DNA from: Candidatus Hydrogenedentota bacterium
Lineage (GTDB): Bacteria > Hydrogenedentota > Hydrogenedentia > Hydrogenedentales > CAITNO01
Direction of reading: 5' to 3'
DNA: 54,170 bases
NCBI GenBank assembly: GCA_012730105.1
Contig: JAAYBJ010000046.1
Span: 1 to 54,170, forward strand
Shown here: one piece after another, positions 9,617 through 17,307 of the stretch
Numbering within the stretch: the stretch's first letter is position 1
How the letters are laid out: each line of letters begins with the position of its first letter
Position numbers and translations under genes: made by a program
The notes under the pieces: model-generated
What the model was told of the DNA's origin: nothing
The model's input: only the letters and a program-made list of their open reading frames with translations
The model's database searches: none

Positions 9617-9983
9617 ACCACCTTTATACCTCTCATATACATATCGAACAAGTTAGTGCTGAAAATTTAAAGATATCGGGGACAAACCCGGATTATATCA
9701 TGAAGGCTCCAAGAATCCCCGAACAATTGAGACGAGGTATCTTTTTCGCCCTTCACAGGAACGCTACTACAAAGGGATGCAAGTTACCGGGATGTAATGG
9801 AACCCCCGGTGCCCCCCTCCCCCCCGAAATAACAAATAACATACCGCTTCTTTCGCCCAAATCCTGTCGGGTGAAAGCAAAGACACTACTGACAGAGAAC
9901 GCACTTATGCGCCACCACGTTGCATCCGGATGGCTTGATGGGGTATACTGTTTCGTACACAAAATATATGGGAGCAAAACAAT
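9617..9983. other. Divergent intergenic region between glgX and the MarR-GNAT gene
   Basis: This 367-bp spacer carries the start regions of two divergent genes. On the plus strand there is a good promoter (9920-9949). On the minus strand a perfect TATAAT (9697 down to 9692) lies about 76 bp before the glgX ATG but has no recognisable -35. A homopolymer-like C-rich run occurs near 9814-9826. A frame open from 9700 to 9999 crosses the promoter and is not considered a gene. Confidence 0.5.
9920..9949 (+). promoter_or_regulatory. Promoter of the MarR-GNAT/racemase/symporter operon
   Basis: TTGCAT (9920-9925) and TATACT (9944-9949) are separated by 18 bp, about 35 bp before the first ATG. As the first gene encodes a MarR-type DNA-binding domain, this stretch is the likely place for autoregulation; I cannot point to a specific operator palindrome. 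Confidence 0.62.
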
Positions 9984-11015
9984 ATGCCTGAAGTTTTAAA
10001 TTATGAAATGTGTGATAATATACTGATCAGCCTCCGAAAAATCGTACATGCCATGGGAATACACTCCCGGCAGTTACAACGGACCTACGCCTTGACAGGT
10101 CCCCAGTTGGTCTTGCTCCGCGAAATTTTTCGCACCGAAACCATAAGCATCGGACGGCTGGCACAGGAGGTCAGCCTGAGTAATGCCACCGTTACGGGCA
10201 TTATTGACCGGCTGGAACAATTGGGATATGTTTCCAGAGCACGCAACGGTCAGGACCGCAGACAGGTATTTCTGTCATGCACAGACAGGGGGAAAAAGGT
10301 TTTGCAGGAGATGCCTCCCCTGTTTCAGGAGCACTTTATTTCCGCCCTTTCCAATCTTCGTGACTGGGAGCAGGGCCAGATGCTTGCCGTGGTATCGCGC
10401 TTGGCCGCGATGATGGGCGGCAATGGGTCCGCAGGAGAGGATCCCGCGGTCACACCGGCCCTGTCGGAGCCCGATGGGTTTATCGATTCCTGCCGAATGC
10501 TGCTGGACAACACGGTCGGGGATGATGGCGCTTCTGCGGCGTCAGAGACACAGGAATCGCTCCGGGTTATCCGCAGCGACGGTGATCTTCCCGGCGGCAT
10601 GGATCGTCCGCGCCTCGCGGCGTTCCTGCATGAACACCTGCAGCCCTATGAAGACACACCGGAGGATATCGAAGCCGGCTTGGACTATGCCCTGAATAAT
10701 CTGACCGGGCCCGGCGGCTTTATGGTGCTCGCCCTGGATGGGGACACCCTGCAGGGCGCTCTCGTCATGTTAAATACCGGCATGACAGGGTACATACCCG
10801 AACATGTCCTGTTGTTTGTGGCGGTACATCGGGAACTGCGCGGCAAGGGAATCGGCGCCGAACTAATCCGGCGCGCGCAGCGGGAATGCGCCGGCAACAT
10901 CAAACTTCATGTGGAATATGACAACCCGGCGCGCCGCCTGTATGAACGGCTTGGCTTTTCAAGCAAATATGCGGAAATGAGGTGGACCCGTGAATCATCT
11001 GACCATAAATCTTGA
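9984..11015 (+). CDS. MarR-family regulator fused to GNAT acetyltransferase
   Basis: The 343-residue protein joins two domains. Residues about 10-145 form a MarR-type winged helix (ISIGRLAQEVSLSNATVTGI as helix-turn-helix, RNGQDRRQVFLSCTDRG as wing). Residues about 190-335 form a GNAT acetyltransferase, with the acetyl-CoA loop RGKGIG at 286-291 and the terminal NPARRLYERLGF. A low-complexity linker (145-190) separates them. Fusions of MarR and GNAT domains are known elsewhere in bacteria. The gene overlaps the racemase gene by 26 bp, so the three downstream products are probably made together. I infer that it senses or acetylates the operon's substrate; the ligand cannot be read from sequence. 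Confidence 0.85.
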   Translation: MPEVLNYEMCDNILISLRKIVHAMGIHSRQLQRTYALTGPQLVLLREIFRTETISIGRLAQEVSLSNATVTGIIDRLEQLGYVSRARNGQDRRQVFLSCTDRGKKVLQEMPPLFQEHFISALSNLRDWEQGQMLAVVSRLAAMMGGNGSAGEDPAVTPALSEPDGFIDSCRMLLDNTVGDDGASAASETQESLRVIRSDGDLPGGMDRPRLAAFLHEHLQPYEDTPEDIEAGLDYALNNLTGPGGFMVLALDGDTLQGALVMLNTGMTGYIPEHVLLFVAVHRELRGKGIGAELIRRAQRECAGNIKLHVEYDNPARRLYERLGFSSKYAEMRWTRESSDHKS

Positions 11016-12150
11016 GGCCCTGCTTCACAATTATCTTGCCATTGAAGCGTTGATGCGCAAGCACGGCAGCCGCTGGACCATGGTTACCAAGGTGCTCTGC
11101 GGAAACCGGCCGGTATTGCAGGCCCTGGCCGCCATGGGCATGCGCGCCGCGGGCGATTCGCGCCTTACCAACCTGAAAGCGGTAAAGAGGATTGCCTCGG
11201 CGACGGAGTGCTGGTACCTGCGTGTTCCGGGCCCCTCGGTAATCGACCAGGTGGCCCAGCTCTCCGATGTCAGTCTGAACAGCGAGATAAAAACCATAAG
11301 CGCCCTCAATGAATCGGCGGGCCGCATGGGCCGGAAACACCGTGTGATCATCATGATCGAGCTCGGTGATTTGCGCGAGGGTATTTTGCCCGGATCGCTG
11401 ATCAACTTCTATCAGTCGGTATTCAATCTCCCCCACATTGAAGTGCTGGGGATCGGCGCCAACCTGGGCTGTCTCGCGGGGGTCGCTCCCAACATAGACC
11501 AGTTCATGCAGCTCATCCTGTACCGCGAACTGCTCGAACTGAAATTCGAGCGGCGCCTGCCGCTGGTTTCCGCAGGATCGAGTTCGTCACTGCCCCTGCT
11601 CATAGAAGGCTCCGTACCCAAAGGCATCAACCATTTCCGTATCGGTGAAGCGTTGTTTCTGGGCACGGACCTGATACATGGCGGCACGCTGGCGGGATTC
11701 CGCAACGACGTTTTTCTTCTGAACACCGAAATCGCGGAACTGAAGGAGAAGAGCCTGCAGCCGCCCACGGATGCGACCAGCATCGCGCCTTTTGCCACGC
11801 CCCAGGGCAATGACGCCCAGCCCGGCCAGCGAGGCTGGCGCGCATTGGTGGGCGTGGGCCAACTGGACACGGACATCACCGGGCTGGCCCCGCTCAACCC
11901 GGACTATGAAATCGCCGGCGCAAGCAGCGACATCACGGTGGTAAACCTTGGCGACCACGATGACGGACTCAAAGTGGGCGACAGTATTCAGTTCCGCCTG
12001 AACTACGCCGCGCTGCTCCGCCTGATGAACTGCCGGTATATCACGAAGCAACTGGCACCTTCCGTAGACGAATTTAGGGAACGCATGAAAGAGGAAGGCC
12101 GCATCCAAAACGGTGTAGTCATCACGGACGGTCCGGAAGCGCGGGAATAG
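10990..12150 (+). CDS. Alanine/ornithine racemase-family PLP enzyme
   Basis: This is a fold-type III PLP enzyme of 386 residues. The N-terminal alanine racemase-like barrel carries the PLP lysine in MVTKVLCGN (Lys34), followed by the ornithine-racemase-type motif MIELGDLREG (about 122-131) and SAGSSSSLPLL. This matches the branch that includes ornithine racemase, rather than peptidoglycan alanine racemase, whose dimer-forming C-terminal domain looks different. The GTG start has GAGG at good spacing and overlaps the previous gene. Substrate is undecided: alanine, ornithine or another amino acid. A linker of about 35 residues (SLQPPTDATSIAPFATPQG onward) interrupts the C-terminal half and is unusual. 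Confidence 0.85.
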   Translation: MNHLTINLEALLHNYLAIEALMRKHGSRWTMVTKVLCGNRPVLQALAAMGMRAAGDSRLTNLKAVKRIASATECWYLRVPGPSVIDQVAQLSDVSLNSEIKTISALNESAGRMGRKHRVIIMIELGDLREGILPGSLINFYQSVFNLPHIEVLGIGANLGCLAGVAPNIDQFMQLILYRELLELKFERRLPLVSAGSSSSLPLLIEGSVPKGINHFRIGEALFLGTDLIHGGTLAGFRNDVFLLNTEIAELKEKSLQPPTDATSIAPFATPQGNDAQPGQRGWRALVGVGQLDTDITGLAPLNPDYEIAGASSDITVVNLGDHDDGLKVGDSIQFRLNYAALLRLMNCRYITKQLAPSVDEFRERMKEEGRIQNGVVITDGPEARE

Positions 12151-12160
12151 GGAGAACTGA

Positions 12161-14023
12161 ATGGCGCACCCTTGGATTTTGTGGATAATTATCCTGGGCT
12201 ACATGGTATTCATTTTCTTCAAAGGCGTCAGCAAAGTCAACAAGATTGAAAGCGCCGACGACTTCCTGGTGGCGGGACGCTCTATTGGCTGGTTTGCCCT
12301 GGCCTGCACCATGGGAGCGACGGTGATCGGCGGCGGCGCCTCCATAGGCGCCATAGCGCGCACCTACGAGTGGGGCGTGCTGATGCTGCTGGTTTCATCG
12401 GGCGTCTATGTACATTTCATTTTCGCCGGCCTGGTAGTGGCCCCCCATTTCCGTAAAGCGGAAGTCTACACGGTGGCCGGTTATTTCGGACACCGCTTTG
12501 GCGAAGGCCCCCGCTTCTTCACATTGATCCTCTCGCTGCTCTTTTCCGTGTTTATCATTGCGGCTCAAATGGCCGCTTTCGGCAGTGTCATGTCGGCCGT
12601 CCTGCCCCAGTTCGCCGACGTCGAGGTGGTCCTGCGCCTGGCAATCATCATCGGGGGCAGCATGGTCGTCATTTACAGCACTGCCGGCGGATTGCTGGCC
12701 GTGATCCATACCGACGTGTATCAGTTCATTATCCTGCTTCTCGGGTTCTTCATCACCCTGGCCTTTTGCGTGCCAGACATTTTCACCTCCTACAACGCGG
12801 AACAAGGTCAATTCGTGCCGACCCGTTTCGGCGCGATGGATATACAGGATGCGCCCTTGCTGGCGGCGGCGCTGACAGACGAGAACAACCCCATCTCGCG
12901 GCACATTCTCGAAACAACGGCCATGACGCCCCCGGAAATTTCCGCCGGAGAGCGCAAACCCAAGCCTAAAATTCGAAAACTGGTAACCCTGCTCAATACG
13001 GCGCTGGACGATACCACCCTGTACACACCGGAACGCTTCGCGCGCATAACCCTTTCAGAGCAAACGCGCGCGTTACTGGCCAAAGATCGTGATAGGGTGC
13101 GCATCAGGCGCCTGAACCTTTCCCTGGTTCAGGACGCCTACCGGGAAGCCATCGCCCCGAACCGGACCATTCCCGCAACATTCTTCCATCCCCACGGCGG
13201 CAAAGGCTGGATCTTTTTGGTTACCACCTTCTGCGCCTTTCTGCTGGGCGAAGCGTTTGCCCCGGGATACGCAACCCGTTACTGCGTGGGCAGGAACATT
13301 CAGGAAACCCGCTATGGCATTGCCGGGGTGGGCCTTTTTCTGGCGCTGGTCTTTCCGGCAGTACTCCTTTTTATCGCCCTCTACGCGCGCATCCATTTTC
13401 CCGACATCGAGCCGCAGCAGGCGCTGCCCATGGTTGTAAAACAATTGAATAATCCCATCATCGGCGGCCTGATCATCGGCGCGCTGCTTATGGCGGTCAT
13501 GTCGTCCGCCGACTCCGCGCTGAACAGCGCCACAGCCATCTTCGTCAAGGATTTATTTGAGCATCAACTCGGCTGGCGCAATACCGGCGACGGGCGCCTG
13601 CTGAAATTGGCACGTCTCTGCAGCGGCATCCTAGGCGGCACCGCCATCCTGGTAGCGGTCCTCTGGTCCGACATCATCGGGCTACTGCTCTTCACCTATC
13701 ACGTTTGGGCACCCGCCATTATTCTGCCCGTATGCATCGGCACCCTGTCGCGCCGGCGATCGCAACGGCTTAACAGGATCATAACCGCCAGCATGGTTAT
13801 CGCCACCGTCGGGACGCTGTTGTACCGGGCACCGCCAATGTTACGGAATTATTTTGATTTGGTCCTGTTCAATGCGGATGTCTATGCGCAACTGGAAAGT
13901 TTCGACCCGGCCGTATTTGGCGTGCTGCTATCTATCGCCACCTATACCCTGTTAAAGGCGGGGGGCCGACTGGTATACGGCAAAGATGCTCCTGGTACCG
14001 GCCAAGACATCGTTCGCACATGA
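12161..14023 (+). CDS. Sodium:solute symporter (SSS family) with large internal insertion
   Basis: The 620-residue membrane protein belongs to the sodium/solute symporter family. Evidence includes the N-terminal DDFLVAGRSIGW, the unwound-helix motif with GGGASIGAIARTYEWG, and the signature around residues 446-465 (VMSSADSALNSATAIFVKD). About 13 hydrophobic spans are visible. Residues about 205-347 form a charged, non-membrane stretch between two spans (RKPKPKIRKLVTLLNTALDD and on), much longer than usual at this place. It starts 10 bp after the racemase gene, so it probably imports the substrate of that enzyme. The transported solute is unknown. Confidence 0.88.
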   Translation: MAHPWILWIIILGYMVFIFFKGVSKVNKIESADDFLVAGRSIGWFALACTMGATVIGGGASIGAIARTYEWGVLMLLVSSGVYVHFIFAGLVVAPHFRKAEVYTVAGYFGHRFGEGPRFFTLILSLLFSVFIIAAQMAAFGSVMSAVLPQFADVEVVLRLAIIIGGSMVVIYSTAGGLLAVIHTDVYQFIILLLGFFITLAFCVPDIFTSYNAEQGQFVPTRFGAMDIQDAPLLAAALTDENNPISRHILETTAMTPPEISAGERKPKPKIRKLVTLLNTALDDTTLYTPERFARITLSEQTRALLAKDRDRVRIRRLNLSLVQDAYREAIAPNRTIPATFFHPHGGKGWIFLVTTFCAFLLGEAFAPGYATRYCVGRNIQETRYGIAGVGLFLALVFPAVLLFIALYARIHFPDIEPQQALPMVVKQLNNPIIGGLIIGALLMAVMSSADSALNSATAIFVKDLFEHQLGWRNTGDGRLLKLARLCSGILGGTAILVAVLWSDIIGLLLFTYHVWAPAIILPVCIGTLSRRRSQRLNRIITASMVIATVGTLLYRAPPMLRNYFDLVLFNADVYAQLESFDPAVFGVLLSIATYTLLKAGGRLVYGKDAPGTGQDIVRT

Positions 14024-15229: not shown

Positions 15230-15898
15230 ATGGTATACAAATATGTAAAGATGCTTCGATTACCTGTACTAATAGTTGGATCTTATGTGGTTCTCTACGC
15301 GGCTTTGCATTTCGGCGGTTGCGGAGGCGGTTACCAAGCGCCCGAATTTGCCATCGACCTCAAGCCAGGAACCATCACATTACCAGAGTTTCAAGTGGAT
15401 AAGAAGGGTATCCACTTGATTGAATTGGCGGTTGAGCGCAATATGCCTCTTGATGACCTCGAATGTCTACTCGAGTTTCCGCGTGAAAAAAATCCGTCTC
15501 TTGAGCCGGTCGTTGACATCGAATGGACGCTGACGAGTGGCAATAGTATGGTCGCAACGGGTTCTTCCCGAAAGGAAAAAGGCGGAGGGTGGGGACAGTA
15601 TATCTTTAGGACTCTCGGTCGGTTCGATGGTGTGCCACGAATACCTTACGTCCTTGAGTTAACTATATTACGTGATGGATCAGCGCTCGCACCCGCAAAC
15701 CCCCGGATTGTTTTGGATCTGTATAAGGATGATTACATACGCGAAATCATAATTCCACGGACGAAGGCTTACTTCATTGTAGCAATCGTAGCAATCATTA
15801 TCGCGTGGCTAGCGGCTTTTCTGGGCGGTCCTGTATATGTTCTGCTGAGGAGAAGGTGCGCTCACTTACAGGAAAACGCTCCGCAAACGGAAAACTAA
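15230..15898 (+). CDS. Orphan membrane-anchored protein, paralogue 1 (222 residues)
   Basis: I do not recognise this family. The product has an N-terminal span (about residues 8-27), then an extracytoplasmic-looking domain of about 140 residues with APEFAIDLKPGTITLPEFQV, WTLTSGNSMVATGSSRKEKG and RFDGVPRIPYVLELTILRDG. A second span follows (YFIVAIVAIIIAWLAAFLGG), then a charged tail. Cysteines at 31 and 48 could hold the domain or a lipid, but there is no clear lipobox. The ATG has GAAGGAG upstream. It is about 60 percent identical by eye to the gene at 16666 and to the fragment at 14707. Base composition is more AT-rich than the surrounding operons. Confidence 0.75.
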   Translation: MVYKYVKMLRLPVLIVGSYVVLYAALHFGGCGGGYQAPEFAIDLKPGTITLPEFQVDKKGIHLIELAVERNMPLDDLECLLEFPREKNPSLEPVVDIEWTLTSGNSMVATGSSRKEKGGGWGQYIFRTLGRFDGVPRIPYVLELTILRDGSALAPANPRIVLDLYKDDYIREIIIPRTKAYFIVAIVAIIIAWLAAFLGGPVYVLLRRRCAHLQENAPQTEN

Positions 15899-16665: not shown

Positions 16666-17307
16666 ATGCTAAGCAGATATATCAAGTATCTCCAAGGGCC
16701 TGCGCTTATACTTGTCTCGGTGATTGCCATGTACATAGCTGTCCGACCAAGCGGCGATTCGCCCGAGTTTGCCGTCAACCTCAAGCCTGGAACCATCACA
16801 TTACCGGAGTTTCAGGTGAACATGGAGGGGCAGTACGAAATTGTATTGGCGGTTGAACGCAATTTGCCTCGTGATGATCTCGATGATCTGCTGGGCGGTC
16901 AGCCCACCCTAAACTCTCCTGGGTCGGTCGTTGACCTTAAATGGACGCTGACGAGCGGTAACAGTATAGTCGCCTCGGGTTCTTCCCGGAATGAAAAAGG
17001 CGGAGGGTGGGGACAATATGTCTATAGGACTATCGGTCGGTTCGATGGTTTGCCTCAGACCCCTTACGTCCTTGAGGTCAATATATTGCGTGACGGATCA
17101 GCCCTCGCACCCGCAAACCCCCGGATTGCTGTGTGGCTTGCTCATGAGGAGGTCTTAGACAAAATCACAATTCCACGGATGAGGGCTGCATGCCATACGC
17201 TGATCGCGGTGATCGGTATCTTATGCCTGTGGACGGTCATGGGTCTGCTTTTTCGAGGAAATCCTGACAAGGACGTAAAAGGCGACGCTCCGCAAGCGGA
17301 AAATTAA
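16666..17307 (+). CDS. Orphan membrane-anchored protein, paralogue 2 (213 residues)
   Basis: The architecture is the same as in the gene at 15230: an N-terminal span (ALILVSVIAMYIAV), an extracytoplasmic domain (PEFAVNLKPGTITLPEFQVN, TLTSGNSIVASGSSRNEKGG, LPQTPYVLEVNILRDGSALA), a second span (HTLIAVIGILCLWTVMGLLF) and a charged tail ending in ...APQAEN. The central domain is the conserved part; the spans have diverged, which suggests selection on the outside domain. The CysGly-rich segment after the first span in paralogue 1 is shortened here. The start is set by AGGAGGG. Function is unknown. Confidence 0.75.
   Translation: MLSRYIKYLQGPALILVSVIAMYIAVRPSGDSPEFAVNLKPGTITLPEFQVNMEGQYEIVLAVERNLPRDDLDDLLGGQPTLNSPGSVVDLKWTLTSGNSIVASGSSRNEKGGGWGQYVYRTIGRFDGLPQTPYVLEVNILRDGSALAPANPRIAVWLAHEEVLDKITIPRMRAACHTLIAVIGILCLWTVMGLLFRGNPDKDVKGDAPQAEN

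Follow-up and report, generated by a model that had tools for sequence, protein, structure and literature searches.

Which pathway is served by a gene cassette that places a MarR-GNAT fusion protein, a racemase-like pyridoxal phosphate (PLP) enzyme and a sodium symporter side by side? The question is raised by positions 9984–14023 of a Hydrogenedentota stretch of 54,170 nucleotides, the whole of which is referred to here as the window. All cassette genes lie on the + strand: the MarR-GNAT fusion (9984–11015, 343 amino acids; open reading frame call and Pfam), a fold-type III PLP enzyme from the GNAT-linked clade of the alanine/ornithine racemase family (10990–12150, 386 amino acids, GTG start) and a sodium:solute symporter of the SSF family (12161–14023, 620 amino acids; Pfam PF00474). 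The first two genes overlap by 26 bp and the symporter begins after a gap of 10 bp; reading frames, overlap and gap agree with the preliminary description of this DNA, which had regarded the three genes as one unit. A Pfam scan of the three proteins returned MarR, GNAT, PLP racemase fold and SSF domains only. There is little doubt that the three-gene module is real and widely conserved in bacteria. From its sequence, we read it as a putative autoregulated module for amino-acid import, conversion by the PLP enzyme (racemisation) and N-acetylation, and assign this reading a probability of roughly 50%.

Conservation was surveyed in 68 Hydrogenedentota and 395 Bacteroidota genomes (463 genomes, two phyla), plus one Sumerlaeota locus. 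The racemase family was present in 9 of the 68 Hydrogenedentota genomes, and eight of these nine sequences were close (61–100% identity); the genome of the window (5.6 Mb) holds a single copy, and in seven other genomes homologues of 61–73% identity were found in the same MarR-GNAT/racemase order. The GNAT subfamily occurred in 8/68 genomes, directly upstream of the racemase in all eight (p ~1e-9, kinship uncorrected), and was fused to MarR at these eight close loci wherever the contig was long enough to show it. The ninth racemase (G045, 34% identity) falls in a different branch, and its genome has no such GNAT. Among the Bacteroidota, the GNAT-domain profile gave exactly one match per genome in 62 of the 395 genomes, the racemase profile matched in 63 of the same set, and both were found together in 61 (Fisher p ~3e-68, genomes counted without kinship correction). 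Because genome counts are not independent events, both p-values overstate the evidence. The two genes were less than 200 bp apart in 53 of the 61 pairs; six of the other eight lay within 2.5 kb on the same strand and two were in broken assemblies, and the spaced pairs that were read were interrupted by M20 and Alr genes, a symporter or another gene. Over 26 loci, GNAT and racemase distances rose together (r = 0.86, 0/5000 permutations), a correlation that partly mirrors species phylogeny.

That importer, racemase-family enzyme and acetyltransferase belong together, as had been proposed from the window, is borne out by their co-occurrence in at least three phyla; the accompanying check, a search for the same company of genes in other genomes, was run, and the GNAT/racemase pair recurred. 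The condition named in advance as refuting the unit, absence of joint occurrence in other genomes, was clearly contradicted, and the earlier reading holds for the unit and its probable kind of chemistry. The finding that GNAT and PLP enzyme are almost never apart in the genomes surveyed marks an apparently undescribed amino-acid pathway. Open-access literature searches returned no paper on a GNAT/PLP-enzyme pathway, and those on MarR-GNAT fusions and on racemase plus GNAT found nothing direct.

The fusion protein is composed of a MarR winged helix (residues ~30–145), a linker (~148–188) and a GNAT acetyltransferase (~192–336). Both domains scored well above their Pfam cut-offs (MarR PF01047 at residues 37–95, 54.3 bits against 24.6; Acetyltransf_1 PF00583 at residues 219–325, 46.6 bits against 20.7), and the AlphaFold model consisted of two confident domains with low-confidence segments at 148–170 and 175–188, matching MarR proteins and GNATs in a fold search of the PDB. 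The acetyl-CoA pyrophosphate loop RGKGIG and the C-terminal motif LHVEYDNPAxxLYExxGF were conserved in 25 aligned GNAT members. In Bacteroidota the GNAT lacks the MarR part and stands alone beside the racemase, which makes it probable that the acetyltransferase takes an active catalytic part in the pathway. By the same argument, a predicted acetyltransferase function, and not just a regulator, belongs to the module. The MarR part was probably added in the Hydrogenedentota line; we infer this direction, the tree being unrooted.

The PLP enzyme was assigned to its fold by Ala_racemase_N (PF01168, 62 bits). Its closest NCBIfam model, NF040742 'ornithine racemase Orr', aligned over the whole protein with 290.5 bits and did not reach the curated cut-off of 480. 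The PLP-binding lysine K34, within T-K-x-x-x-G, was invariant in 25 sequences. The AlphaFold model (confidence score pLDDT 87.6) had D-threonine aldolase as its best structural match in the PDB, closely followed by alanine/serine racemases at nearly equal ranks. A PDB search with the single racemase sequence gave no match at E 0.01, and a profile search gave only weak matches to alanine/lysine/serine racemases; designed repeat proteins, which also appeared in the latter, were dismissed as a chance match.

A maximum-likelihood tree (unrooted, 43 sequences) placed the 28 GNAT-linked enzymes together on one side of a branch supported at 100/100, apart from true Orr and the rest of the 15 sequences outside the clade. 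From these 15 the Orr motifs SDH and GxQD were defined here: all carry SDH, and in each the residue ahead of the GxxD Asp is Gln, Glu or Ala. In the GNAT-linked clade, this last position is held by Leu or Ile (rarely Met), and the His after SD is replaced by Met, Ile or Leu (rarely Val or Glu); the enzyme of the window carries GQLD and SSDI in place of GxQD and SDH. In a second round, partly with the same sequences, the SDH His was found in 0/46 clade members. The two positions align with the catalytic Tyr and CMDQ regions of alanine racemase in an hhalign profile alignment of low confidence, so that a catalytic role for them is suggested with reserve. Since the SDH His and the GxQD polar residue are lost, the name 'ornithine racemase' is not transferable; the ornithine label that had been attached to the window's enzyme is weakened accordingly, and automatic names of this kind in Hydrogenedentota and Bacteroidota carriers are unsafe.

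The symporter matched SSF (PF00474) with 119.7 bits against a cut-off of 22.8, and an NCBIfam scan gave no substrate-level model at its cut-off. A symporter adjoins the GNAT/racemase pair in 24 of 38 mapped Bacteroidota loci and in 5 of 9 other loci. Hydrogenedentota and Bacteroidota symporters share 25–30% identity, the exception being the Bacteroidota locus L104, which has the window's type (~50% identity). Two distant SSF branches thus stand beside the pair, and the import function would therefore have joined it more than once. Compared with the 468-amino-acid relative in L104, the symporter of the window has an insertion of ~110–130 residues (~225–340; window 12833–13180), which is hydrophilic-looking, common to the Hydrogenedentota and Sumerlaeota copies and missing in L104.

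Further genes accompany the pair in part of the loci. An M20 protein (TIGR01891 above cut-off, with the N-acetyl-diaminobutyrate deacetylase DoeB2 among the nearest models) and a second, Alr-type racemase (TIGR00492 above cut-off) were both present in 12/38 mapped Bacteroidota loci, for example in Persicobacter sp. JZB09 with the gene order SSF-GNAT-M20-Alr-racemase. The M20 relative elsewhere in the window's genome shows only 30% identity, and hence the Bacteroidota deacylase was not simply relocated there. An M23-like protein, which lacks an obvious signal peptide and comes closest to the M23 portion of PRK06148 fusion proteins, was found in 9/38 Bacteroidota loci (L062–L066, L068–L070, L076). 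Four related Bacteroidota loci contain a divergent ornithine aminotransferase (TIGR01885) beside a lysine 6-transaminase (TIGR03251, confirmed in L063). An S-adenosylmethionine-dependent (SAM) methyltransferase occurs at five loci, in four Hydrogenedentota relatives and on the Sumerlaeota contig L005, placed between racemase and symporter or, at loci without a symporter, behind the racemase (L019:8796–9842 on the − strand; L020:9323–10366; L005:2804–3880; L018:1607–2818). Within Hydrogenedentota it was found only inside the cassette, and it is absent from the genome of the window; a search for a known family gave no placement and no close family.

Upstream of the cassette, a sigma-70-type promoter, TTGCAT-N18-TATACT, was predicted by consensus match at 9920–9949 (+ strand), beginning 64 bp before the start codon. 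Five promoters of MarR-GNAT genes with readable upstream DNA were compared (window, L016, L019, L020 and L021), and in all five a TTG...TATRAT-type promoter begins 63–70 bp before the start codon; a stricter consensus promoter scan performed no better than shuffles and did not list the promoter of the window, so that promoter and half-site emerged only when genomes were compared. Directly downstream of the −10 box lies a candidate MarR operator (9944–9969, no strand assigned), an imperfect inverted repeat around CAAAATAT (9960–9967). The exact half-site ATATTTTG follows the −10 box, at most 45 bp from the start codon, in 5/5 promoters, and three exact copies exist in the whole window. The inverted-repeat scores of single promoters were not significant (shuffle fractions 0.05–0.43), with an imperfect second arm in the window; the evidence for the candidate operator is its recurrence across genomes. 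The conserved half-site fits autoregulation by the MarR-GNAT protein, and the region 9920–9983, earlier named as a place where the regulator might bind, gains support as a candidate regulator site from the half-site at 9960–9967. An Rfam scan of the window found only tRNA, and regulation is therefore explained by no known riboswitch.

Taken as a pathway, the symporter would take up an amino acid with Na+, and the PLP enzyme, judged by fold, family and PLP lysine, would invert or otherwise act on the alpha-carbon. The GNAT domain would N-acetylate the substrate or the product using acetyl-CoA, a step deduced from the intact motifs and from the fact that GNAT and PLP enzyme hardly ever occur apart. 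In Bacteroidota, where the genes for both are present, the M20 deacylase could remove the acetyl group and the Alr-type racemase would be added. In the window, repression of the operon by the MarR domain would act at the site next to the −10 box; because this domain is fused to GNAT, the binding of substrate or acetyl-CoA may exert feedback on transcription. A free amino acid is the most likely substrate. Among these, a basic representative of the ornithine or lysine type is a weak favourite, tentatively put forward on circumstantial hints, namely the near-Orr family, the DoeB2-like M20 protein and the loci with ornithine aminotransferase and lysine 6-transaminase. A more speculative extension is that MarR-GNAT acts as a trigger enzyme, i.e. 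a catalytically active N-acetyltransferase of amino acids in which occupancy by the substrate directly switches binding to its own operator, and that it serves a new PLP-enzyme subfamily with a chemistry other than ornithine racemisation.

Several observations weigh against an import, racemisation and acetylation module. Symporter, M20, Alr and M23 are all optional, the ornithine/lysine link comes from four loci that are related to one another, and a simple catabolic scheme leaves the methyltransferase of the window's relatives unexplained. In addition, the clade lacks the SDH His and the GxQD Gln, Glu or Ala seen in 15 relatives, including the Orr of Acetoanaerobium noterae, and the reaction may therefore not be racemisation; nor does the clade conserve a Tyr where Alr has its catalytic one (hhalign, low confidence). 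These two residue losses would suit a PLP enzyme that works as a decarboxylase, aldolase or lyase on the same fold, with GNAT acetylating the resulting amine, as would D-threonine aldolase as best structural match with racemases close behind. Yet racemases and aldolases rank almost alike in the fold search, the remaining family core is conserved and the NF040742 alignment spans the whole length, so that we consider such an enzyme improbable.

The methyltransferase, in the cassette at five loci and nowhere else in the phylum, would find a place if PLP enzyme and GNAT made an N-acetylated amino acid for accumulation during osmotic stress, also N-methylated where the methyltransferase is present, with the symporter importing product or precursor. 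Acetylated diamino acids are known osmolytes. MarR plus GNAT are moreover known from an osmolyte operon, PA3458–PA3461 of Pseudomonas aeruginosa (PMC8070244). This compatible-solute system is nevertheless unlikely, though somewhat less so than the other alternatives: the cassette contains no asnO/ngg-type genes, and two racemases plus a deacylase in the same Bacteroidota operons suit turnover better than accumulation. Detoxification or self-protection, in which racemase and acetyltransferase clear a toxic D- or non-protein amino acid sensed by MarR, is compatible with the conserved trio; toxic small molecules are frequent triggers of MarR regulators, and inactivation of amines is a common task of GNATs. 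For pure detoxification, however, it would be odd that most loci include a dedicated importer, and the Bacteroidota GNAT without MarR indicates that the pair needs no such sensor, which leaves this explanation a poor candidate, on a par with the non-racemase enzyme. Import, conversion and N-acetylation of an amino acid thus remains our preferred reading.

The cassette was compared with known systems. The Orr of amino-acid-fermenting Clostridia (NF040742; L087, A. noterae) belongs to the same family, with full-length alignment and the PLP lysine in common, and a Bacteroidota clade member is ~33% identical to A. noterae Orr. The window's enzyme, in contrast, scores below the cut-off, falls in a separate clade and has the SDH His and GxQD polar residue replaced; furthermore, A. 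noterae Orr adjoins the D-ornithine aminomutase genes oraS/oraE (by sequence likeness), whereas the cassette is without these and the partners are GNAT and symporter. On Vibrio and Roseobacter plasmids, alanine/ornithine racemases of the same family overlap a DUF1611 partner gene (L089, L092, L114, L115, L119), but this partner is not a GNAT and the five enzymes group in another clade. DUF1611 is the family of the D-glutamate N-acetyltransferase DgcN, and in its pair with an Orr-family racemase a possible N-acetyltransferase again accompanies a racemase, in parallel to the cassette. An irreversible route of racemisation has dgcN as its key gene (PMC12363236). D-Glutamate catabolism by DgcN/DgcA resembles the proposed pathway in its logic of N-acetylation plus racemisation for using a D-amino acid, while the cassette has GNAT and a PLP enzyme instead of a DUF1611 or enolase-family gene. 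The MarR-regulated operon for N-acetylglutaminylglutamine amide (NAGGN), PA3458–PA3461, likewise combines a MarR regulator and a GNAT in one cluster, but there MarR is a separate divergent gene and the operon is without racemase and symporter (PMC8070244).

Some related arrangements were recorded along the way. In the same-genus genome G007 (L015:607–6968), type III CRISPR-like genes (by eye) adjoin the GNAT/racemase pair and no symporter follows. In L078:3–1367, an IspE-like kinase frame continues at its end into a GNAT relative, and a class IV aminotransferase-like gene comes next (by eye); in A. noterae, a distant relative of the GNAT (L120:6134–7411) is fused to an apparent fold-type II PLP enzyme. 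On a Salmonella plasmid (L091:1084–6568), two racemases neighbour two amino-acid permeases; this is a further unit of import plus racemase, and its Orr-family member is a different one. Downstream of the cassette, two similar membrane-anchored proteins without any Pfam match are encoded in tandem at 15230–15898 and 16666–17307 of the window, in a stretch of lower G+C content (~0.47–0.51).

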